Assembly: GCA_020541285.1 (NCBI GenBank)
Contig: CP047043.1
Span: forward strand, 310,001 to 374,000
Direction of reading: 5' to 3'
DNA from: Candidatus Gillettellia adelgis
GTDB lineage: Bacteria; Pseudomonadota; Gammaproteobacteria; Enterobacterales; Enterobacteriaceae
Length of the DNA: 64,000 nt
Positions 8,813-56,202 of the stretch are shown here, piece by piece (position 1 is the first letter of the stretch; each line of letters begins with the position of its first letter). A model generated the notes under the pieces. It was not told the origin of the DNA and made no database searches. It worked only from the letters and a program-made list of their open reading frames with translations. The translations under genes and the position numbers were made by a program.

Positions 8813-11800
8813 AATAGTAGACTGGCTATCTAATGAAAAGTATTACTTTCATATCAAGTTCTTATATGTGTTTGAATCAGTAAAATATTCACGGTTATTT
8901 TACCTTAGTAATCATGAAAGAAGTGATTATCTAACATTACGAGTATGCACATTTTAAGTAGTTAAGACTATAAATGCTGGTCGTTTAGTCATAAAACATT
9001 AAGTAAGCATGCATCATCTGAATTGCGAGCAGCTGAAGAAAACTTTGTCAAGCTTACTACTAATCCTTGAGGTATGATATCACGGTTTATGACAAGGTAG
9101 ATTTCATACCTAAAAGAGAATGGATACGTCTAATCGCTATTGCGTGCTTGATCTCACGGTTACCTAACGACTTTCAGTAGCCAACGAACTGAGCGTAGCG
9201 TATACTCATGATATTGCTATGCTAGATTTCTATATTTAATAGTAGAAGTCATAGTTAACAATACAATAAATCTAATCACTTAGATACTCGATATATCTTC
9301 AGAGTTTCTTGTTACACATTTATCAGATCAGTTGTGATTCTAGCTTTTTTAGAAGCATCTCTTCTATCTAACGCCACGTACTTAAAGTGCAATTATTAAT
9401 TATCTAAAAGTTCATGCAAGAAGCATACATTGTTAATTATTCATTGTTAGATTTATTGTATCAGCATAACACGGAGTAATGAATATGTATTGAAATACCG
9501 AGTGTTTTTATATATTAGTGCGTAGTGACGCAGTAAAATTATTGTTAATATAATAACTTGATGTGCATATTAGGTAAGTAAGCATGAGGCTGATTTGTCG
9601 ACCATGTTCACTTGATTTTTTAGCGCTTTGTTAGATGTGATATCAACTTATCCGAGGTCATCTAATAATCTCATAAAGCATCTTAGAGAATCTTGAAGTT
9701 TTGCAGTAAGTCTTATTGTGTGATATTTGAAAAACGTTAGTGCCTTACTTCATTTTTCAAATACTGCAGGATTTATATTGATATTTTTAGAATATGCTAA
9801 ATGTTAAGTTGCTGTACTTATGTATCTTCAAATGAGTTGCGTAATACCCTGTAATCATTTCAAAAGATTTTTCTCATGAAGTGATCATGCATAAGAATTT
9901 TAGAAAATACTTAAATATAGAAAGAAGATATAATAAAAACAAGCGCATCTACATATCACTATATGTATATTCTATCAATAGAACAAGACAATTAAATTAC
10001 GTTTTGCAATAGTTTTAAAGAAATAAATAGCAAGTTAGGATAACAAGAAATCCTATTTCTTGGGGAGGTATGTTCAACATTGTAATACATTAGTACATAA
10101 GATAGAGATCGTTCTATAAAAACTTACAGAATAGACGAGACTGATAGTTGTGACTACCTTAAAGTATAAGTATATAAATTGTATAGCATGATTATGTACG
10201 TCAACCTATGAATAGCACATCGCTTAATAGCGAAAATAATTATTTAGAATTTAAGTTCGCTCTTAGATGCCGAAGCATCTGGTTGTGATTTAGTCAAGTA
10301 TAGCTTTAATTAACTGAAAGATTTTAGAGGACATACTATAATAACCTTATTCCTAAGATCTGTTGCTAAATGTTTGATTTAATTTAAAAATACTTTAAAG
10401 ATACATATACTTTTCATTAAAGTAATCGAGTTAAGAGTACATACTATTTTCTAGTTTGTTGCTAATCCTGCTTTTATATTAACAGTAATAATCATAATGT
10501 TTATCGTTTAGTTTTCTTATAATGTTATAGAAACACGCTAATAGCATTGCCTGTTAGTAGTAGACTATAACAGTCACTCGTTCTAATATCCTTTATTTCC
10601 GCGCGATGTATCATATATATCGTCTACCTAGGTGCGTCTAGGTACTTCTTATCTTTAGAGATATAGAATTGATATATCATTAGAATTTTTAGCATTTTAT
10701 ATGCTATATGTCTTCCTTTTAAGGCAATGCATAGGCAATAAGCATACAGTTTGATAAAAATTAAAATTTATTATACCAGTACTGATTGTTATGAAAAAAA
10801 TCAAGTGCAGCAGATTCTTGATCAGTAATGTCAAGTTATTAATATTGGGTCAGATTATTGTTATTTTATAACCAAAATACTACTAGTACTTACTAGTATC
10901 ACTTTAGACGATAACACTCCTTTCACCTTACTGGGTAATGTTAGTATTAGCAATACTACAATATTATTCAATTTGCTAGTGAAGCTTATGCATAAGGTGA
11001 ATGATTTAACAGGTGTGATTATTGCATGGTAAGTAATAATGAGTAGCGACATTTGCTCTAGTATAGTTTGTGGTTAATCTAGTAAACGGATTAGATCTTT
11101 ATTTGTTACCTTCTGCTAACTGAGCAGGTATGAATAAACACATTATCTATGATTACGTTCTTATTAGGAAGATGGATTTTGCGCACCACATAATTCTACC
11201 TCTTATTTAAAATACATTTATACTTGGCCTGCTAGGTTTTAGTTAGGTACTATATCTATAGTTATACTAACTATGTCATGCATTGTAGAATGTCAGTATA
11301 TCGATGTTAATACTATTCTTATTTTTATAGAACTGCCTTAACCGGCAGTACCGATGATTTTAACGAAGTGCAATAGCGTCGCTATGCATCGGAGAGAATC
11401 TGGCATACTTAATGTAACAACTAAACGAGGCTAGCTCACTAGTTGACGCTATTACTAAAACAAGGCAGTAGGTTGAACGAGGTTATGCCACAATAATCTG
11501 TCGATGAAGTAATGCTATAAAACTAGTGTTATCGATGTTGGTCGGGTAAAACAATAGTTACTTTTGGTCGATCTGGCTACTGCACTGTTGTGCTGCATGT
11601 ACATAACGCTATAATAACTTTAGAATTAGCACTAATAATCTCCGGTTTTTATGAAAAATTAATGATTATTTTATTTTATGAAGCCAAGGATTTATAATAG
11701 GTCATAGTAAATTACTAGGCTAAAATTTTAAATATCATAAGATTTTAATTGTTAGTCTAAAATACTAATGCTGTGAGTGTATCTTGTATGCCTACATAGA

Positions 11801-14800
11801 AATTCACATTAGCGCGTTACTATAGCAAATTTTAACATGCATTTAATAGCTTATTGATATGGACATGCAGTGGTGCTAGGATACTTGGAACCATTTTACA
11901 TAAATAATGATATTTTTATTAGTGAGATCAACGACAGCACAACAGTCTGTGGTTGCCAGCATTGCAGCTCATATGATGTATATGGTGATTTTTCTTGAAG
12001 AAGATCACTATATATTATGTCAATATATATCTGGATCGCTTCATGTATTCCATGCGTTAGATAGAAAAATTTTTCACTTTTGAAGGTCAACTTTACATAT
12101 AATATAATTATATCATGGGTTCTTGTCTCTTGGATATTTAGTGTTAATCCTCATTACTACCATAATGGTTTTTTTATGTTTTACTTGGCACGTATCATGG
12201 TCTTTTCGTGCACCCTGCGTCCTTGTTGAGCGCAATAGCAGAAAAGATAATTGATTTTATCTATGAAGGTAGAATGGTGATTCTCACACACCTAATGTTA
12301 AAGTATATTGTAATGTATGATGTCACTGTGCCATGCTTATGATATTACCAGTGTGCGGCGTATTGCGCCTGCAAGATTTTTTACTATTACTTAATAGGGT
12401 AATCAAAGACTTTATGCAACGCGCTGGTAGGATAATTATAAGCGTCAGTATGTATCAGTGGCTTAAACAGATCTACTTTTTTGTAGAAAACAGCAAGGAT
12501 ATGAATGATTGCAATATAGCCTCAACATAAAAAAATATTAATACTGCTATTATGGTTGATATGGGTGTAACAAATAACTAGCAGACTCTCTTTACCATAT
12601 ATATGATTTTATATAAAAGAGCAGTGATGGTTGGCATATAAACATATACTTAGATGTTTGAATATGCTAGTTACCGCGAAGGCAGCATTATTAATTCAAT
12701 ATAGCAGAGTAGTTAAATAATATATTTCAGAGCATATGAGTGGGTTTTTAATAACTTATAGTTAAACCAAGAATTTTAATCTTATTCAATATAAGAGAGT
12801 AAAGGAATAATAAAAGTTAGTACAACGGGAGATTAAGCAAGTAACTGCGGTACGAATATCTCCGATTACAACAGATGTTAATTTTTATGTTTGTATGTAT
12901 CTTAATGCTTTGATGGCAAGCTTGATCAGCCATTCATTGATCAGTGGCTTAATGAGATCTTTTATTTTATGGAACTAAATGTTATTATTCAATAACGATA
13001 TAACTCTATTAGTTGGCAATGTCTGATGAACATCAGACAGCGCGGTCTACTAGTTATCATCTAACGATAGATTTTAGTTAGTTTTTCTTTTATTTTTCGT
13101 TGGGCATTTTAACTATATTACTATTCATTTAGCTTGCTTACGTCTTGCTAGTACCTTGTTATTAGCATATCTAAGTGACGATTACTAATGGCGAGCAGAC
13201 TGTTAGTATATAAGGAGAGTTATTGTGCACCAAAATGAATAAGTGATAAGGTTATTTGGCTTTTAGAAGTGTTGATATAAATGGTACAACTAATGCTAGT
13301 AGGCTATTACACTGACTCAAGTAACATCCTAACATTGCGTAGGATATGTGGTTGTTTCATCTAGCATGACAACATCTTCTAAAAAACAGCTAGAGAGTGT
13401 TAGATGCTGTATCGACGATAGTAATTAAAATCCGGGAGAGTATTCCCGATTACAATGATTAACTCGAGATGTCCATATTTTACTAGAATATGGTGATATT
13501 TACTATAAACTAGTTATGCTGTGTTATACCGTGCATGTGGCAGGTTTCGTTATTATAACTGCAGTGATAACCTGATTAACTAATATCAACCTCTGCGGAT
13601 AACTACGTTTAGTACGTATGTTTATATAGCTATAAAACTTATTTAGTCAGGACAGAGCTCTGAGCTAACCAGTTTCTCATATAGATTAAGGCTTACGAGA
13701 TCTCTGGGTTATTTTAAAAAAACTTAAGTGTAGGTGTTGGCTAATACAATATTCATTTTCCTACAATCTAGATGGGTTAATGCACTGCATTATACTAGAT
13801 GTACTAACATTATGTTTTAGGATATCTCAGTGATTTTTCATTCTATAATATGGTTGTATCACGTTTGAGTAATATCTTAAAAAAGAAGTATCTTTATGCG
13901 GAATTTTTATTAATTACATGATAGTGGTGATTGTTGTACATTGCTTGTGCATTACCTTATTGAGTTTTTGACGAGTTAACAGTGATAACAATGTTTTCTA
14001 TTGTGAATACATGCATTGACTTAATTAAGTAAATTATTGTTTACTATAATCAGAAAACCTAAGGTATTCACTGTTATGTGAACATATTGTAGATTGCTAT
14101 ATTGATAATGTTATTTTGTAGGATGCACTAGGAATATTAGTACGTAGAATATTACGTTAGTATTGACGAGTAGACTTTTCTTGTTAACATTTCTACATAC
14201 GTTAGTTTTTGACGTTTTATATATGTCATTAATACATCCAATAGATGTGCATTGTCAATTTATTTGATATATTTAATATAATATTAAAAGGTCTCTTGTC
14301 CTTTGTAAAACATATAGTATTCCCACTTACTTTTTATTGATTGTAATTATAATATCTAGATAATATAATTATACTCAAGAGAGTATAGAAAGTAAAAAAG
14401 CATTTAGTTAGCATATCCATCATCACTCATGCTAGTTAGCGAAAAATTATCTATAAGATAGTTTATGGGATTTTAATCGATAGTAATTTAGCTAGTGGCT
14501 ATGTGAGGTTTTATGTTAAGACATGCTTTTTGTTATGCAGGTATTTTTGATATATTGATGATGAAACTCTCATAAAGATTCAGAGTCTTAATAATCCATG
14601 CGAGTGTTAGATTATCGAAGCTAGAATCAGCGTTTTAATGTAATCAGAGTATCTCCTATCATACTTGGCGATAGAGAAGTTTTAAGTACCCCGTGCATCC
14701 GGTAGTCAATCAGAATTGATGATTGTTAAGAGCATTGATAATAAAATATGAAGCATCTTGCTATAATTATAAGTATAATTCTTTAATTATGAATCTAGTG

Positions 14801-14970
14801 CTTTAGATTATTTAAATAATAAGAGTCTATACTTAGGTGATATGTGACTAATTTATATTCTATATCTTAGATATACTAGAGGTTATTTAAATGTCTTGTA
14901 AGCACAGGTAGTAGATAACAAGTTGTCTTATGACTAATGAGATATTGTAGTTCTTTACGAATTAGTTGTT
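8813..14970. other. 6.2 kb gene-free eroded region
   Basis: This is the longest gene-free stretch in the window: very AT-rich, with frequent stops in all six frames. ORFs of about 60 codons at 10861-11052 (-), 11896-12090 (-) and 12333-12530 (+) lack motifs, convincing ribosome sites or homologues I can recall. In E. coli rlpA, dacA, ybeD and lipB lie downstream of rodA; if they were once here, nothing recognisable remains. No tRNA T-arm or rRNA segment was seen. A hairpin at 13021-13038 is within chance expectation. Confidence 0.7.
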
Positions 14971-25815: not shown

Positions 25816-26072
25816 TGCTGCTAATTGTCATAACGCTGCCAATATTGAGACATTCATGCAAAAGATAATTAAAATGCGCGTAAATCCCCTAAACGGCGCG
25901 TAGTTGACTGTTTAAGTGAGGACATACAAGTTGTTAACGTCATGAGGGTGAGAAAGATAAAATGAAACGGCTTCTAAATTCTCAGCAGCTGTTTCTTAGT
26001 TGTGTAAGTATAATATTAACATCTGTTCCAAGTATAGTGATATATTATATATTAAATTATGAGGCTTTTACA

Positions 26073-27550
26073 ATGATACCTATCATCGCACTAGTCGGAC
26101 GCTCTAATGTAGGAAAGTCAACCTTGTTTAATCGTCTGACACAGACGCGAGACGCGTTAGTGGCAAACTTTCCTGGGCTAACACGGGATCGTCAATATGC
26201 GCACGCTGAATTTGAGGGCAATGAATTTATTATTGTTGATACTGGCGGTATTGACGGACATCAAGATGGCGTTGAAAAATGCATCGTTGATCAGTCTTTT
26301 TTAGCAATTGCAGAAGCTAATATTGTACTGTTTATAGTTGATGCGCGTGCTGGGCTGATGCCAGCCGATCAAGAGATTGCTCAATATCTACGTAACTGCC
26401 AAAAGACGACCTTTGTAATTGCTAATAAGATTGATGGTTTAGCATCGAACGCAGCGACTGCTGATTTCTATGCGCTGGGTCTTTCTGAAGTATATGCGAT
26501 TGCCGCTTCACGTGGCCGTGGTATAAAACAACTAATTAAACATATACTACTCCCTTCCTTGTTAAAAAAGGAAGGGAGTTTTTTGCAAAAAAAAATAACA
26601 CTGCTTACTTGGTGAAGCATAATGATAAAAATCTTACGGGTGTAAAAGACATATTACAAAGTGACTGCAAATTACAGACACTACCAGTGAAGCTCGCTAT
26701 TGTTGGGCGTCCCAATGTAGGTAAGTCTACACTGACGAATTGTATTATTGGCGAGGAACGTGTCGTAGTATACGATATACCAGGAACGACACGAGACAGT
26801 ATTTATATACCTGTGATACATAATGAGCGAGAATACGTATTGATTGATACTGCGGGAGTGCGCAAGCGTGATAAAGTAATCAAAGTGGTAGAGAAGTTTT
26901 CAGTAATTAAAACATTACAGGCAATTGCAGATGCTAACGTAATACTCCTGGTTATCGATGCATATGAAGGAGTTTGTGATCAAGATCTTGCATTGCTTGG
27001 TTTTATTTTGAAAAGTGGTCGATCATTAGTCATAGTAGTTAATAGATGGGATACAATCATCGAAGCAAATCGTACACATGTTAAGGATCTGCTTGATCTG
27101 CGTCTAGGTTTTGTGAATTTTGCTCGTATACACTTTATTTCAGCGCTACATGGTAGCGGTGTTGATAAATTGTTTGAATCCGTATTAGAAGCTTACACTT
27201 GTTCAACACAGCGTATGAACACGTCTCTTCTGACTAGGATAATGAAGATGGCTGTTGATAGCCATCCACCACCATTGATACGACATAGACCGGTCAAACT
27301 CAAATATGCTCATCTCGGTGGACATAACCCACCGATTATAGTTATTCATGGTAATCAGGTAAGCAATCTATCCGATGCTTATAAACGTTATCTAAGCAAC
27401 TACTTCCACCGCTCTTTACAAGTGATAGGAACGCCGCTTTGTATTCAGTGTAAAGAAGGATATAATCCGTTCGCTACAAAACGCAATCTACTAAGGCCAA
27501 ATCAGTTATATAAGCGTAAACGTCTAATCAGACATATAAGGAAGAGTTAA
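26073..27550 (+). CDS. der: Ribosome-assembly GTPase Der (EngA), split by a frameshift at an A9 tract
   Basis: Der has two tandem GTPase domains and a KH-like C-terminus and is essential for 50S maturation in E. coli. The start at 26073 ([17 protein letters not shown], with GAGG upstream) matches the family. Frame one carries GTPase domain 1 ([28 protein letters not shown]) and runs to a stop at 26615. Frame two, open from 26540, carries the linker's second half, domain 2 ([23 protein letters not shown]) and the KH-like end ([24 protein letters not shown]). Nine A's at 26587-26595 lie where both frames are open. One extra A, or a -1 shift, restores a continuous protein of normal length. Both halves are well conserved, arguing for function by slippage, or a sequencing indel, rather than decay. 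Confidence 0.88.
26549..26584 (+). terminator. Terminator-like hairpin inside the der linker
   Basis: The perfect 12-bp stem ACTCCCTTCCTT / AAGGAAGGGAGT has a 7-base loop (GTTAAAA) and runs straight into six T's (26579-26584). It has the form of a strong intrinsic terminator but lies within the coding sequence, three bases before the A9 tract that breaks the frame. Its bases encode the linker between the two GTPase domains. Confidence 0.6.
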
Positions 27551-32151: not shown

Positions 32152-35100
32152 CTTAATAACTAGTGATTTCTATTCATAGTTATTGAATAATCTTAACTAT
32201 TTTGATTAATTAATAGTTTTAATGTTAACAAAAAGTATTAAATAAAAATATGCCACGTGAATTTTACGATAGAGTGGAGCGTATAACGCTGTGACTTATT
32301 GTGAATCCTATGAAATATACCATAGTTTTTAGAGTATTTCAGATATATACGTCATATGAAATTCTAGAAGTTTCAAAATATATCAATTGATTAATAAGCT
32401 AATTGACAAATAACTGTAAGAGCATTTTTATCTATTCTGCTGACTATATTTTAGCATCATAGCCGAATTTCATGGAATATAAAAAAATGCTGTTTTTATA
32501 AAAACAAGACATCGTTGTCGTTATCAGATACACGTTTTTTTATTAATAAAACCAGTAATTTTTATGTCTTTATGCGTGCTATATTTAATTTATTAATTAC
32601 TAAGCATGTCTTGTATTTCCATGAATGGAAGTGCTTCTTATTTTTTTATTATTTAGGGTTCTATAAATGTTTTTATGCGTGTTATATTAATACGATGTAT
32701 TAAAATAATTTTCTATAGTTAAGAATAATGAAGGTTTCGTGATTCATCGATAATGGGAGTGACAAGATAATCATCGTGTGATCTATTAAATTTTCTATCT
32801 TATCTTATTGGAATACAGAATGCTATTTATTAAATAGTTAATGAGTTTTTCTACTATATAGCACACGTCAATATTGATAGGAGATTATATTTATCAGTAG
32901 CCTGCTACTATTATTTAGATATTTGCAATATATTGATATATATAAGTTTTATACAGGAGAAGATCCTCAATATTATATTAAAATTTTAGTCCTTAGAACT
33001 TAGAGAATAGCTACTATACGATTAGATTTTCTTATGTGATAGTATTTATGCAAGAGAATCATATGTACTATCTATTACTTGATAGTGTACTTAACCTTTA
33101 TAATTATATAATGAAATATATAATATTTTTAATTATTGTAAATGTCTATAAATTCTATGAATATTCAACATTCATTGTTGTTGATAAAATGTTGAAGTAT
33201 TAGCTAATGTAGCGAGATATATCAATTTTCATTAAAATTATTACTCATTATAATTATACATATAGCCTAAAGAAATAAAAGAAAAATATTAGATATAGGT
33301 ATAATATCTTTAAGAACGTATACACTCTGAAAGATAAGTTGGAATACATTTATACTAAGGTGTTTTATTGCTCTTTCATATGCTACGGTGAGTACTTCTA
33401 TCCCATATCTTTTGATAATTAATGTGTATAGTTACAACTGTATTCATAATCAGTGTTGCTTCAATATTATACTACTTTACTAGACGTTCGTTAAGACGCC
33501 TTGTATTAAGAGAATGGATTCACTAAATAAGCGTAAAGTTTATAGGATATCTGTAATTCTTATCTCATTGACACAATACTCGATTAAGTTAGCGGATATT
33601 GATATTATAATTGTTTTATGAATATTTATGCGACCTCTATAGCTATAGAGATATGTTGTGATAAACTGTGTTAGATTTTATTTTTCTTATTTAATTTTTG
33701 AGATAAATGATTCTATTTTTCTATGCTGACATGCTAGACACCTAAACTATTTTATCATAAAGTATTTTTTTTTAACATATTTTAAGTAAGAAGACTTTTA
33801 TATAGAATAAATACATATATTATCTGCAAGGATGTATTTATCTTTATTTATGCTAATGCTATCCTGAATCATTTTATTACAATAAATATTGTTAATATTT
33901 TTTCTAATAATGTCTATATCTTAAGCATTAAGATTCTGTGTTTAATCAAACTATATTATCTATAATATAGACAAACGTGCTGAATTATTTTCTAACTGTA
34001 GAGAGAGTAAAATAATACATATTTAATATAGTTAAAAGAATTACATCAGTATACATGAGCAATAACTATATTAATTTAGATGTATCTCTAATCTTAGAAA
34101 ATTTTTAAGTGAGCGGCTAATATGGTTTACCAGTTTGCATAATATTAAGTGGCGGATAAAACTCAGTAAGGGTTTTTTGATCTGCTATCACTGTTGCAAA
34201 GTTAATAAATACATTTATTTAAATTTTTATTAGTATCATCCTTCTTTAATGATGAAGGAATGTAAGTCGTTCCATCTCACAGTGTAGTAGGCAGAATAAT
34301 TAAATGCTTACGCTTCGTTCAAGTATCCTAAAAAGGATCCGATTTATACGATATGATATCTGTTAATCAATCATTATCTCTTTCAAAACAATACAGATAA
34401 CTAATTCGACAGCACCCATACGCTTCCCGTTTAGATTCACAGACTATGCTCACGTTGAAATGAGTATTAATGCTGATGATGAATCACATAAGGGTAACGT
34501 AAAGATTTATTTATCTCTAGAAATTATACTACGGCTAACAAGTTAATTCAAAAGAAAAGGTGCTATTTTACATATCATAAAAAATCTGTTATGTATTACA
34601 TACATGGCTGTTTTTTGATTACAGAACGGTGTATACATTTACATCCTATATAATTTTATATAGCAGATACTATTTGTGTATCTTGCGTCAAGTATTTGTA
34701 CAGATGATTTGCATATGTTTTAGTTTTAATAACCCATCCATATGTTCGCTATACAACAACCACGATTATTGTTAAAGTTACTATCAAGTTGATGCTATGA
34801 TTATGAATTATATATGAGTGCTCGTTAGTTAGACCGAGATGCTAATTTGCGTACGTCAAACAAACTAAACGGATATTGTATAAAGATTTATATGGAAATC
34901 GTAGCTTGCTTAATAAGGTAGTGTCTATTTTATATTAGCATCATATGATGTTATGCATGTATTAAACAGCTTCTTGGTTTATATAGTGAACAATTATACT
35001 GAGTACTACGTACTATTATATTAGTAGTGATGAATAGTGCGCCGATTTTGTGTGATGTAGTAAAATATAATCTATGGCATTCACATCGAATTGAGTGGTA

Positions 35101-37328
35101 TAGTTGGCAATAGAACACACAATGCATTAATGATATGTAGAAGTAATATTGATCATTATTAATGATACCTAAGTTATATTAAACATAATATAAGTGATTA
35201 ACTGGCTGTACATAGTACGATAATGAGATATTTTACGATACTACTATCGTATAAAATAAATTCATTATTGAGAGTTATATAGATAATTACATGTTATAAA
35301 CATGAAAATCATACAACAGCAAAACTATGGATATAGCGGTATAACGTGAACATTGAAGATCTACTACTCTACATCAACTAAAATTGAGTATATTACTGGT
35401 CGACAATGACTCCTTTTAATATAAATGCTACCGTTGTTGCAATAAATTTTGATATTAGTAAGAGTTTAAAACTCCTTGGCAGTTTATTTTCCCCAGTACG
35501 ACATGTAATATATGAAAAACTATAACGTCTTTTTAGTATGTGATCTAAATTTAAAGGTAATCATCTTTGATGATTATACTTAGAAAAAATGCGCAAGGGT
35601 GATATGCACTACATCGATATAAACTGTGTACTACATGTTGCACATGTAGTACACATATTTTTAGCAGTGCATAAGTGTTTATTATAATCATACTACTAGT
35701 CGCAAGGATTCCGTTGATTTTTTTAATTTTTCAAGAGATCATTTATAAAAAATTATATAGTTTCGGGCTTAGCGATAGAAATAGTTGTAGTGAATCACTT
35801 CTTGTATACTTGAGCACTATTATTCAAAATATTTATTTTCCCGAAAAATATTGATGGCGTAAACTTTTAGGCTTGTACGGTTAATACCGTTATATGGTGA
35901 GTGTACTGCTATGATTATGTAAATATTAAAATTATATTTTAGATACAACAAGTTTGTTCCACTATGTTTTATATGTAAATAAAGTTGCGGCCAGTCAACA
36001 CTATTCAGATTTTATGGTTAAATAGTTGCAATGCGACTAAAAATGTGGGGTATGTAGTGTAGTGATCACGTATTGCTTTGTAATTACTGTAACAATTCTC
36101 GTAAGTAGATATCAAGAGTTTAGCAAAGAATCTTATTCTTTTATCTAGTAAAGCTGTTTCTAATTTATTTTGATTTGTGTAGTTTTTTGATAACTGGGAT
36201 AAACAAGATTTTTTATTATCCAGAACGCAAATGGTAAGGTAAAATATTTAATGCGTCTGGACGAATAAGATAACACGTAACAGAAAAAGAATTTTATGTG
36301 CTGGATTAAGTGCATTACGTTTAAATAAAGTATTAGAATGTTTCTAACATGCTATTTCTACAGAAAATGTTATTAATGAATGTCAGAGCTACATTAGCTG
36401 TTAAACTCTTGACAACCCAGTCTCTTAGAAAGACAGGTGTCTAGGATGAATCGTTAATTTGTATATCAATTAGCGTTAGATATTCATAAGTAAGCATCAG
36501 AACGATCTTTAATGTCTCTCTAGTATTTTATATTTTTAATATTAGAAGCACAGCATGTCCGTTTAAGTGTTATATCTCAATTAATGTTCCCAATGATACA
36601 AGTTAGCGTTTGTTATATCATAAATTTTGTGATATCTTAGTCCGTAGTAAATGTACAGTATTTGCACTTGAGTGAGCTGCAGATGCATCAGTAATATGTA
36701 CCTAATTTGTTAGATACTGAAGACACTATTCTACAGTGTAGAACAGTTCTCAATTATTTTATGAATCCAGAAATACTGTTAATTATGTCACTTCTTCGTT
36801 TTTTCTAAGTATACAAATATATTTATAGTATTTTAGGTGTGTTAGTTATCTGGTAATTATCAAGAATATCGTTATAGAATAATAAATACATTGGGAATTT
36901 GTGTGCAGAATACTTTCCCGCTTCTGGATTAACTTTTAAGAAGCGGCATGTTATGTAAGCGAATTTAAAGGTAGTTTGGATTGCAGATGATATTTAAAAC
37001 CAACAAGAAAAATATTCATCTAATATATGAATATTTAGACTTATAGTGTTTTGTTGATAACTATGGTATATTATTAATAATATACGATGAGTAGACATCT
37101 GATATAGCTGCTTGATTTTCAATTTGTATCTAAAGAGTACTGATATGCATAAATTATTGAGGAGTGCATCTGTTTAAACCGGGATTCCATAATATATGCT
37201 TTTTAGAGTAGATCTAAAATCTTTCTCATTTGACGCTTGTATAAGGATTTTACAAAAAATCGTCAACTAATTAGCAGAGTCATTCATCAGCTATAACCTC
37301 GCCTTTAACGAGGATGCGATAAATCGCC
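32152..37328. other. 5.2 kb gene-free eroded region
   Basis: Very AT-rich with no supported gene. The 32515-32703 ORF has a biased, low-complexity aromatic composition and no motif. No tRNA, rRNA, repeat array or IS end was found. E. coli has pepN divergent from pncB; no aminopeptidase N sequence (GAMEN, HExxH) could be read. Confidence 0.7.
37297..37313 (+). other. Small hairpin in the pncB leader
   Basis: CCTCG-CCTTTAA-CGAGG forms a 5-bp GC-rich stem ending 15 bases before the pncB ATG. The right arm holds GAGG, the only Shine-Dalgarno-like sequence here, though its spacing to the ATG is long. It could influence translation. No NadR box (TGTTTA-TAAACA) was seen. Confidence 0.25.
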
Positions 37329-50431: not shown

Positions 50432-53400
50432 TATCTTAATCTCAAATTCTATTAGTATGGATTCAAAGAATAATAGAGTGCTCTTTTCTTTTCTGCAATA
50501 ACTAAAATAGTCTTAATATTTAAATTAATCTTTAAGAACTCTATATTAGATATGATAGACTAATCTAGATTAGATCATGAAATATTATTACTGTAATTTT
50601 AAGGCAAACTTTTAAAAACCATAATGCATTTATTATATCTAGATGTGTTTGGATAGTTATATATAATCAATCAATTAAAAAGTGTGCACTAAGACAGTGC
50701 AAACTCTTTGTTTATACACCTTGTCTGGATATTTATCTAAATCTTACAGGATATTAAGAGGTTTGCATTGCATCTTGCGAAATAAGATAAAACTCTAATG
50801 TTCTTAGGATGCTCAGAATTTCTATAGAAATTCTTAAAATAAAGAGATACTATAAGTATAGTACGTTAAATTATATGCTGTATAGCTATTTTAAAGTTAT
50901 ACTGTAAATCTATTATGCGAGAGTAGGAACATATTTAAGATTGAATTATATACTATTCACATAGTATATAATGATCGATAGTTTCACAAAATGACACATA
51001 ATGTTGTCTATTCATCAAGTGTAGGGTTTTAGTGAACCAGATGTCCTAATTATATCCTCTAAGATAATAGGTGCAACCTAAATTAGCATTTTGTTAAATA
51101 TTGATGCTATTTATGAATTTTTTACGCTTAATATTCCAATATAAGTCGCTATCTTAAAGTAAGATAAATAATTGCTTTAGAAGTGATATTTTCATACTTC
51201 ATGTTGTATTTGCTATCTGTTAGCTGTTAGCTGCGATGATACATAGATGCTAAAGATTTGTTATAAACCACGTGCGAACAGTGTATTCATAATCCGTTGT
51301 TTACCGGACTTACAAGCAGCTAGTACCATGGGTTGTGCGTTATAGTTTATTTTTAAAATTTTCTGTAATTAGTAACACTAAAACAGAAGGTATTTGTTGT
51401 TTTGAGTTAGGGTTTTAATCAGGTCTCTCGGAATATTAGCGTGTCTTTCAAAGACAAACCTTTTAGAGAAGTATGATCAATCTTATCATTATCAATGAGT
51501 TAAAGTTGTTCAAGTTTTGCATTTGTATATATCAGAATGATAAAATTATCACTGTAATCTACATATTAGAATGAGTATTAATCAAATAATTCGCTACTCC
51601 GACCAGAGTAGCATTTTAGTATATTCCAGTACTTGTCAAGTAGGGTAAGTATAAGAAAAATCTTAGTATGTTAACCTTTTCTGTTAAAGCATCAGACTCT
51701 TAACCAGTTGTACTTTTGTATTTTAGTATTTAATGATCGATATCAGTAATGTATAAAATTGAATAATATGATTTTATATATGCATATATTATATAATGCA
51801 ATTTTTAAGTAACTATACTTAATTAATTTTAAGTTTTAACTTTTTCAAAATTATTGAACGATTATTAATTTTGAAGGATGCTTTTAAAAAATTTGAGACT
51901 CTATTATAGAATAAGTACTTTCTTTCTAAAACATCTCTAATCAACATCAATTGCTTAATATATAGAGTTTTGAGAAAGATTGTGGTGAATCTTAGGAGTA
52001 ATCTAATAGCGTTCATTCTACTAAGAAATCACTCAAATATAGAAATTGTACTAAAAACTATCAAACACTTTACATTATAGTAAAAAGAAAGATTGAAGTT
52101 TTTTACAATCTATAATAAAGGATTAATAGATGTCTCTTTTCGGGTATTCTGGCACCTTACGATTTCACTCACCAAACTACAGAATTTTTTAGTTTTATGC
52201 CTCACTGATACAATCGATTGTCTATATCCATCATTATAAAATAATTTTCTGATCATCGTAAGTAAGTGTTGTTACTCCACACTTGATATAGAGAGCGTAG
52301 CTAAGTATGTTTTTTCTACGTCGCGATCCGAAAATCATATTGTTGATGGAAAGGTGTGGTCGCTGTTAATCACACTTTATAATATGGTGAGGTTTTCGTC
52401 GGCATTATTACTAACAAAAATGTGAAATTGCACTAATATTTTTTACTCTGCGCTTATAATCCTGATGATAAGAGTGTACAACTGATAAACATTGAACGAA
52501 AGGAGTTGTTAAAACGTTCTACTAGCTCCTGTAGATGGCATAGTTACCAATGACTGCAGAGATTTCCAAATCAAAACCACCATAATAGATACTTATTATG
52601 GGCAAGTTACTAAGGCAGTGTGCTTCCTTGAGTGACTAGAACGACGATCCAGAGACAGTCTATGTTATGTATCTATTGCACTGATACTTGCTGGCAGTGT
52701 TACATTGAAAGCGCTTATAAAAGTTTAATTATTAAATATATCTTCTCACTTAGTGCGCATAAAAAAAGAGTTAGCGCGATGGTCGATGAATTCATTTTTC
52801 CGGATAATGTTCAGTCTGTTCTGAAAACACATATGGGTGATCTGAGCAATTAAACCGTGAGTGTCTGGGTGCAGAGTTCTTAAAATTTTTTGTATATTGT
52901 GAGATTGCATGTGTGCAAGAATCCGATCTACTAATGCATGCCCTAATGGCGTGGAATAAAAATAAGATGTCAGTTTGCTAATGACTGATACACTATGTGA
53001 TATGTTTTTTGGAACGACAGGAGCTCGAAGGTATTCCTGTCTGGCGCCGTTTTAATATTATGAATTATAGTATTAGTGTTATTAAAGCCGACAACAAAGA
53101 AAGCATGTATGTATAGTAGAGTTTTTATTTCTGATAATATAACATATGATAAATTTAACGCATTATTTATCGATATGCTAACTTTTTACTGCTGTAAAAT
53201 CTAGCTCAGATGATGTATAACAATTATACTACAAGTATTTTAAATATACTAAAATAGAAGAACTGTAAGTATTGTTGCTGCTCAATAATATGTATAAGTC
53301 AGAAAAAATAACGTATAGATAATTTATAGTACTATCAGTTTTACACTGTAAAACGACTATTAGGCGTAGTCTGAAATATCACGGGATAGAAGTTAACAGA

Positions 53401-56102
53401 CTAGATAAATTAGATATTTATCGTGAGTTTGGGTATAGGTGGTCAACTGTTATATATAGTGCAACTAGGGTCACATAATACGGGCATCATTAATATAATG
53501 CATGTTCGGAAATATTACATGATAGTTTATTGTTGCAGAGATTTATTTTGGGAAAAATAAATCTAGGAAAATTAACACCAAGATAAGTATTATACAATAC
53601 GTTTGAATATCGTGTGCGAGTAGTTATTGATTTTTAGTTCTGAGTAGGTCAGTTGTCTAATGTAGATTAAACACTAAATAACAATGCAGATTTAGTAAAA
53701 ATCAATACATAGTGATGTATCAATGTTAATTCAAGTGAATGTACTATATTTAAAGATAAATCGTTTTACTAAGTAAGCTGTTCATTAAATATAAACGATG
53801 TATTTGGGTTTTTTTATATTTTTATATAGTATATTTTGACTTACTCTAATAGTTAACTAAAGTAAAATCTTTATAATCTGTCATGTTATCATTTACTTGA
53901 ATCTTGCACTCTTTGGACCATATATCTTGATTTTTTGAGAGTGATTAATTTTTTAGTTTCTTGTAGATGCGATGTAAACTTAAGTATTTAGGTTCTTGGT
54001 TTGAATAGACTAGACGTCAACTAGAATATTAAACCTAAAACTTAAATATAGTCGTGATAGTAGAATTTTCGTATAGCACAGATCACAGATTTTTTTTATT
54101 TTATATGTATTTGATTTATAGTATTAATTAATACTAATAAATCAGTAAATAACGTAAACAATAAATGTAAATAGTTACGATACTTACCTATGTACTACGT
54201 TTCAAAAGTCAGTGTATTTATTGCTAATTAAGATTAGTCAGTGACTCTGATACTTGAGAAAATCTAATGCATATACGATGTAAAGTATAAGGTCTATAAT
54301 AGACAATGTATACGTATCTTTTATGATTGTTTATAGAATTTTTTCTCTTATTTTTATGACATTAAGTTTGTCTAATACTAATACAGATTGTTGATAGTGA
54401 TAGGGATTAAAATCCATGGTGTACGAGATTACAGCTAATTGCGTTTCGGTAAATTTTGTGGTCCTAGTATTACGTCTGTTCTTTCTATAGGGGCTAGATA
54501 ATTGCTCTAGCAAGCTTTAATATTAAAAATGACTCTGTTAACCAATTTTGTAGTATATACTACTATTACAGTATCTATTGCGATTTTAGATGATATGAAG
54601 ATTGGCTGATGATTAAACTATAATATATTGGAAGCTACATTTAATATTTTAGGGAATATGCAGTTTTTTATGATTAATATCATGTCTGATTCGGGAAATT
54701 TATTTCCCTGTTTTTGTTTATGAAAACAGTTAAGTAATAGTAACAAATACACTAAGACTTTATTTATAGAGACATGCAAGGTTACTGCATTAAACCCGAC
54801 TTAACTATATACTGATATTAAAGATTTATGCGGCAACGTTTTAGTTGCCTTATATAGGTTGATACTTCTATCTATCGCTAGATATTGTATGGCCTAGTTT
54901 GCATCGATCCAGGATTTATTTTACTCTATCTAAATAGCTACGATAGATATATAATACTTCTAGCGATATTAGAGTCGCTGTGAAGATTCTAGTGTTTTTA
55001 TCAGATTATATTGTGTAATATGCTTAATATGCCGATTATCGGAGTAACAATAATTCATTCGATATTAAGAGTACGTTGCAGTATAGAACTGCAACCTATA
55101 TCTTAAGATGTTATATATCATGCTTGAAAATTTTGTATCTAATCTATGCAGACATTAATAATTAGTTTTGTTATATTTTTTACTTTTGTGAGAGAGAATG
55201 AGATACATAAATGATTCACGAATACCTACAGCGACAATAGCTACAGCCATTTTACATGTATAATATTATTTAAGGACCAGTTTTGTGTTTATTATATTCA
55301 ATACATTAGTAAGTCATGAGTTAATTGGAGCGACTATAACAGTTTAAAATAAAAACATATTGAAGCTGCGGTAGCTAGTTTTTGGTTATTTAATAGCGCG
55401 TGTAGTTCAAATTCAAATCTCATGGCTTACTAAGCTAGCAAAACATTGCGTGTTGTACAAGCGACAATAAATAATGTTTTGTAACCGTTAGTGAGAAAAT
55501 CTAATGTTATACGAATTATAAATCTAGTCAGCAGTGAGTAGTAATAGCGGTATCTATTGGGAATTGTCGGTGATCTTCTTATAAATCAGTCTACTGCTTC
55601 CGCAATAGTATAATCTTAGGATGCTAATTAACAGGGATGCTGATGGAATGTAACTGCTTTAATTAATTGCACGTAAGTCACATGGGCACTACGACGGAGT
55701 GTTATCTATTCTGTAGAATAGACTCAGGATACTATTAGATAGGATATTGTAATATCGATGTCTCGTATGTCTGCATATAGCTGGCAGTATAAAAAATTAG
55801 TCATAGACTGTAGGGTGCATGTATATTGTTGATAGCATAGATACGATAAATATCGTGAGCAACGTGAACCATGACCAAAAGAAGTGTAGTCATATAAGTC
55901 AAATTGGTTATTTTACACTCAACTAAAGTAGTAACGTCTCTTATATTTAGAACCAGCATAGAGTACCTACTAACCAAATATCTTTTCTAATGTTAATAAG
56001 TCGTATATTGTGCAATAATACTTCTAAAAGAATGATCTTTTAGAAAGAGACATTGAAAGATTTCTACATGAGTTGTGTCATATTTAGCACGAAAACAAGC
56101 AG
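50432..56102. other. 5.7 kb gene-free eroded region between hns and crr
   Basis: AT-rich with stops throughout. ORFs at 51819-52016 (-), 52632-52853 (+) and 54331-54513 (-) carry no motif. A short frame at 52513-52635 reads LLAPVDGIV and IIDTYYGQ, weakly like the AdhE C-terminus, but its strand does not fit (see rejected items). A sequence around 55309-55430 has a long inverted repeat and a T-loop-like TTCAAAT but cannot fold as a tRNA. No gene is supported. Confidence 0.7.
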
Positions 56103-56124
56103 AACGGTGATCAACCTCACCGTT
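56103..56124. terminator. Second hairpin downstream of crr
   Basis: AACGGTG-ATCAACCT-CACCGTT is a perfect 7-bp GC-containing stem about 80 bases past the crr stop. Its stem resembles that of the crr terminator (AACGG/CCGTT). It could be a backup terminator for ptsHI-crr or the terminator of a lost convergent gene; in E. coli pdxK converges on crr. Confidence 0.4.
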
Positions 56125-56172
56125 TATCATCTTTATTGCTATTTTTAGAAAATTACCTTAAGTTCTAGATGT

Positions 56173-56202
56173 AGAAAACGGTGTTATTAAACGCCGTTTT
56201 CT
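56173..56202 (-). terminator. Terminator of ptsHI-crr, overlapping the crr stop codon
   Basis: On the minus strand AGAAAACGGCGTT pairs with AACACCGTTTTCT (13 pairs, one G-U) around the loop TAAT, with A- and T-rich outer stem. It could act in both directions. The TAA stop of crr is the first three bases of the loop, so the last codons of crr lie in the stem. Confidence 0.6.

Follow-up and report, generated by a model that had tools for sequence, protein, structure and literature searches.

A der gene split at a nine-A tract in Candidatus Gillettellia adelgis, a genome whose longer A runs were probably recorded as nine

As recorded, the DNA of Candidatus Gillettellia adelgis encodes the two GTPase domains of Der, an essential protein of ribosome assembly, in separate reading frames that meet at a tract of nine A's (A9), which raises the question of whether the cell makes a joined Der and, if so, how. 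We examined the locus in a window of 64,000 bases (bases 310001-374000 of the single-contig genome of 1,413,209 bases), where the der region spans 26073-27550. The split is real as recorded sequence: the two frames are offset by -1, both are open across the tract, and the domain-2 frame is open from 26540, 47 nt 5' of it. The likely start is the ATG at 26073, with a GAGG upstream at 26061-26064, and the mechanical ORF start at 25962 is not preferred. A one-base shift gives a joined Der of 492 residues, a normal length, which scores 543.6 bits against the Der/EngA GTPase profile TIGR03594 (cut-off, 306.7 bits) and covers profile positions 1-432 of 432. Scored by itself, domain 2 also exceeds this cut-off. 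An earlier, sequence-only reading of this DNA had described such a split at the A9 tract, one that a single base turns into a continuous, normal-length Der, and our recomputation bears this out.

Features of the der locus (window positions) and the other genes broken at A9 (genome positions)
Feature	Position	Strand	Remarks
der domain-1 frame (first GTPase domain)	26073-26615	+	TGA 26613-26615; 208 bits to TIGR03594
Perfect 12-bp hairpin followed by T5, terminator-like	26549-26579	+	-20.5 kcal/mol, z -6.2
AGGGAG, Shine-Dalgarno-like	26573-26578	+	In right arm of hairpin; anti-SD pairing
A9, site of frame change	26587-26595	+	One among 67 A9 tracts genome-wide
der domain-2 frame (second GTPase domain and KH-like domain)	26596-27550	+	330.3 bits to TIGR03594
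GTGA, domain-2-frame GTG overlapping the domain-1 stop	26612-26615	+	Possible reinitiation site if the split is real
NlpC/P60 gene, N-terminal part	Genome 563967 (L060)		Doubtful break at A9
lptD	Genome 920636 (L073)		Broken at A9; same protein on both sides
surA	Genome 922556 (L073)		Broken at A9; same protein on both sides
nrdA	Genome 1157382 (L082)	-	Broken at A9; same protein on both sides

Apart from the frame change, der looks intact. With one base added, the distance between the two GKS motifs is 203 residues; it is 197-212 in 28 of the 33 parsed loci of relatives, with 175, 175, 230, 236, and 306 in the remaining five. The earlier statement that both halves keep their G motifs was nearly right, the exception being the G4 motif of domain 2, which reads NRWD (27039-27056) and not NKWD, the form found in 24 of the 25 relatives in which the motif was picked up (NKSD in the other). 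As in genes corrected by slippage, the frame changes within a tract of nine or more A's while the remainder of the gene is intact. Relatives do not share it. The der match falls within a single stop-to-stop frame of 437-566 aa in all 39 other genomes, none of them from the same genus and several only 0.5-0.6 Mb in size. In four of these 39 matches the alignment contains one or two stops, and the one that was inspected (G015) has a single 490-aa frame.

A break at A9 is not peculiar to der, which qualifies the sequence-only reading. We fetched the sequence around every one of the 67 A9 tracts and counted a tract as coding when 60 codons were open on each side. On this basis, the frame is kept at 18 coding A9 tracts, clearly broken at four, and doubtfully so at one; requiring 50 codons gives 20 in frame and 5 broken. 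The clear breaks are those in der, lptD, surA, and nrdA, where the same protein was recognized on either side, and the doubtful one is in an NlpC/P60 gene, so classed because Pfam matched nothing in its left half (67 aa). Apart from the break these genes are intact, and three of them, lptD, nrdA, and der, are essential in E. coli. The same DNA contains 378 coding A5-A8 tracts that keep their frame (205, 100, 50, and 23, respectively; the A8 sample is 58 of the 241 tracts genome-wide), and no mid-gene break was recognized at a run shorter than A9. Ten further frame junctions lie away from A9 in this DNA, and none of them splits one Pfam family in two. Five join different adjoining families (lptC/lptA, lptA/lptB, rnc/era, rbfA/truB, and rnpA/yidD), two have a Pfam family on one side only (UDG and a MutY-like protein), and three have none on either side.

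Two reduced control genomes provided a comparison, with 48 coding A9-A11 tracts in frame and none broken (G013, 27 A9, 6 A10, and 1 A11; G045, 14 in total). The fetched stretches held 94 of the 141 A9 and 14 of the 44 A10 tracts of G013 and all 37 A9 tracts of G045. Fisher tests of this genome against the controls, restricted to A tracts on the coding strand, gave P = 0.008 with four breaks and P = 0.0026 with five. T9 tracts stood outside these tests: 3 are in frame here, 12 T9/T10 tracts are in frame in the controls, and none is broken. One A9 junction in G013 was considered as a broken gene and rejected, as it separates a permease from a solute-binding protein, two neighboring genes.

The lengths of the runs themselves showed a sharp upper limit. 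Every one of the 67 A/T runs of at least nine in the 1.41-Mb genome is exactly nine, and no run of at least ten, coding or noncoding, was found anywhere in it; the whole-genome counts for A7, A8, A9, and A10 are 785, 241, 67, and 0. Regression on 59 relatives (whose runs of at least 11 were counted within the fetched stretches only) predicts 9.1, 12.8, or 14.4 A10 runs, depending on the predictor, for which the probability of finding none is 0.021, 1e-4, or 2.9e-5, respectively. A complete lack of runs beyond a certain length, where relatives lead one to expect some, is the pattern of homopolymer undercalling. The A9 count of 67 exceeds the 49 predicted, though not significantly (P = 0.10).

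For some of the broken genes, the ancestral run length could be read from the residue spacing across the junction in relatives, using 16 of 21 loci for lptD, 19 of 23 for nrdA, and 17 of 23 for surA, with the most distant or paralogous loci excluded beforehand. A spacing of four residues, equivalent to A10, was found in all 19 relatives examined for nrdA and all 17 for surA. For lptD, 10 of the 11 nearest relatives have three residues, equivalent to A8, and the eleventh has two; four residues, here equivalent to A11, were seen in none of these 11, while five distant, weakly aligned relatives have spacings of 5, 4, 4, 4, and -2. The der linker is too variable among relatives to fix its ancestral length, nor was one fixed for NlpC/P60. 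Genes in A10 phase (nrdA and surA) are thus broken, genes in A9 phase are intact, and the number of intact coding A10 tracts is zero.

Since runs of at least ten are absent, breaks at A9 are in excess, and nrdA and surA descend from A10, a miscount is the likeliest explanation. We consider it probable that the assembly gives nine for runs of at least ten and that Der is intact. The real der tract would then be A10 and the protein continuous and ordinary, and the same miscount would lie behind the breaks in surA and nrdA, and perhaps those in lptD and NlpC/P60. We infer that the miscount arose during sequencing or assembly. If real mutations had been rescued, some A10 genes should have stayed intact and some A10 runs should occur in noncoding DNA, whereas recording A10 as A9 fits their absence. 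The pattern resembles homopolymer errors of long-read assemblies in that otherwise intact genes break at the longest A runs and no run exceeds the limit; it departs from the typical errors of that kind in the sharpness of the limit at nine and in lptD, which suggests an overcounted run. Indeed, several observations weigh against a miscount. As lptD fits A8, it must have gained a lysine or been overcalled. A10 is likewise absent from eight of the 59 relatives, seven of them with 12-37 A9 runs and one, G051, despite 56. The pile-up at A9 is in the expected direction, but only at the P value given above. R10.4 nanopore consensus is described as resolving most runs below 11 bp, ten included (PMC9262707), a mild argument against such a limit; the same source indicates that runs of at least ten are probably still problematic for this chemistry. 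Finally, slippage-corrected poly(A) frameshifts are known in comparable numbers, with eight reported in Blochmannia vafer (PMC3017870). G051, a 4.9-Mb relative, is the only other genome with more than 50 A9 and zero A10 runs and is a possible second case of a run-length limit.

A feature absent from the sequence-only reading lies directly upstream of the der tract, namely a 12-bp hairpin that carries an AGGGAG. The hairpin ends 7 nt before A9, and the AGGGAG stands 9 nt upstream of the heptamer A_AAA_AAA (26588-26594), within the 9-14 nt before an A_AAA_AA heptamer that characterize a dnaX-type Shine-Dalgarno-like stimulator. Among 97 coding tracts of A7 or longer, der ranks first for anti-SD pairing (-8.9 kcal/mol; dnaX, -7.4) and second for an upstream hairpin; these are not independent features, as the hairpin and the AGGGAG share the same letters. 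Folding of the 60 nt upstream gives -3.4 to -5.8 kcal/mol at the other four A9-broken places, against the value for der in the table, and by eye no AGGGAG-like element is present at the surA, nrdA, lptD, or NlpC/P60 breaks. There is no significant stem-loop 3' of the der heptamer (-3.8 kcal/mol, z -0.26). We considered whether the hairpin is a dispersed repeat and rejected this: apart from the hairpin itself and its opposite strand, the best matches span 14-27 bases, mostly the A run, and no second full copy exists in the genome. Perfect hairpins of at least 10 pairs number 34 in 310,930 bases; seven, der included, lie in open frames of at least 150 codons, and perfect inverted repeats in the same bases reach arms of 39 bp. 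Because similar hairpins occur elsewhere, also within frames, the der hairpin is weakened as specific evidence for slippage. Its left arm covers the codons for LLPSL, and LLP stands at that place in many relatives; the right arm may owe its SD-like sequence simply to inverted copying of the left arm. Neither Rfam nor tRNA scanning gave a match in the window.

If nine A's are instead the true length, RNA polymerase could slip and add an A to some transcripts, so that part of the mRNAs would encode full-length Der. The sequence-only reading preferred this mechanism, and it rightly noted that Buchnera and Blochmannia provide documented cases of rescue by slippage at poly(A) (PMC5009743, PMC3017870). 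There is good support for slippage by bacterial RNA polymerase at nine A's (PMC1088944, PMC5009743), and it is efficient, with 12-50% of transcripts corrected in the symbiont cases described (PMC5009743); Blochmannia vafer has its eight candidate genes (PMC3017870), and in Citrobacter rodentium a tssM1 interrupted at A11 is reported to be rescued at about 20% (PMC4256274). Our breaks share with the Blochmannia and Buchnera cases single one-base breaks in long poly(A) tracts, in needed genes of an AT-rich, reduced genome (PMC3017870, PMC5009743); GC is 0.344 in the DNA fetched here, and this AT content, together with the genome size, the ORF-poor stretches, and the reduced relatives, suggests an insect symbiont. 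Their confinement to A9 would follow from shorter runs being too little slippery for rescue, one of them (lptD) would have arisen from A8, and both halves of Der remain conserved. However, those symbionts have longer tracts, up to 12 bp in B. vafer, while none here is above nine, and some of their breaks are conserved between species (PMC3017870, PMC5009743). Slippage also leaves unexplained why no run of at least ten exists, coding or not, and why A10-phase genes are broken with none intact, and the A9-A11 tracts of the control genomes carry no such breaks. A survey across the transcriptomes of E. coli and Buchnera is reported to have detected no frame-restoring error (PMC5574713). We therefore do not favor slippage and regard it as rather unlikely. 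The alternatives listed in the sequence-only reading were the right ones, and among them a sequencing indel, in the form of an undercall of runs of at least ten, explains the data better.

Other readings that accept nine A's turn on the sequence around the tract. Ribosomes could shift by -1 on the heptamer, aided by the AGGGAG, to produce the joined Der. The spacing of this element is close to that in E. coli dnaX, where the same hexamer stands 10 nt before the heptamer; stimulatory Shine-Dalgarno sequences act at 9-14 nt (PMC5009743), and the anti-SD pairing is the strongest of the tracts compared. In contrast to dnaX, whose heptamer is A_AAA_AAG, that of der ends in A, and A_AAA_AAA is described as far less shift-prone in E. 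coli (PMC5009743). Moreover, the downstream stem of der is weak, its AGGGAG is paired within the upstream hairpin, and surA, nrdA, and lptD lack a similar element, all of which makes a ribosomal shift very unlikely. We see it as improbable, too, that the AGGGAG and the 12-bp hairpin form a recoding cassette through which alone Der is made, with lptD, surA, and nrdA dependent on slippage at A9. Such a cassette might act by a ribosomal -1 shift, by hairpin-aided polymerase slippage, or by both, and domain 1 would also be released separately. Among known systems, the stem-loop-stimulated transcriptional slippage of IS630 in Roseiflexus also has an RNA stem-loop shortly upstream of the run; there, however, the stem adjoins U5C5 and a base is lost, whereas in der the stem is 7 nt away and followed by U5, and a base must be gained (PMC5009743). 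Least credible, and hardly to be expected, is an uncorrected split, with domain 2 made as a second protein by reinitiation at GTGA or with der newly dead. The GTG at 26612 does overlap the TGA in the arrangement of translationally coupled genes, domain 2 alone scores above the Der cut-off, and the window has long stretches lacking ORFs of at least 80 aa, as in genome decay. Against this, no Shine-Dalgarno sequence was read directly 5' of the GTG, Der occupies a single frame in all the other genomes, several of them 0.5-0.6 Mb, and the like breaks in lptD, surA, and nrdA yield no plausible split products. For der, then, a miscounted A10 is more likely than a slippage-dependent gene, a dnaX-like ribosomal shift, or a split or dead gene.

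The true length of the tract decides what these breaks mean. If it is A10, the apparent breaks, in as many as five genes including lptD, nrdA, and der, should not be taken for gene loss or for dependence on slippage, and a census of run lengths offers a way to detect such miscounts in AT-rich symbiont genomes from the assembly alone. If it is A9, several indispensable genes would depend on decoding errors simultaneously, and der would be a natural place for comparing polymerase slippage with ribosomal frameshifting; should slippage act on a real A9, der would join an already known class of slippage-corrected genes.

Two further observations concern the surrounding genome. The stretches of the window without a listed ORF of at least 80 aa lie at 8813-14970, 32152-37328, and 50432-56186, which would be expected in genome decay. 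Perfect inverted repeats, long and with short loops, occur at L065:2735-2816, L083:1991-2046, L054:1072-1123, L058:3639-3677, and window positions 35625-35655, with arms of 39, 24, 22, 18, and 14 bp, respectively. One of them lies inside a 217-codon frame, and they look like products of template switching.
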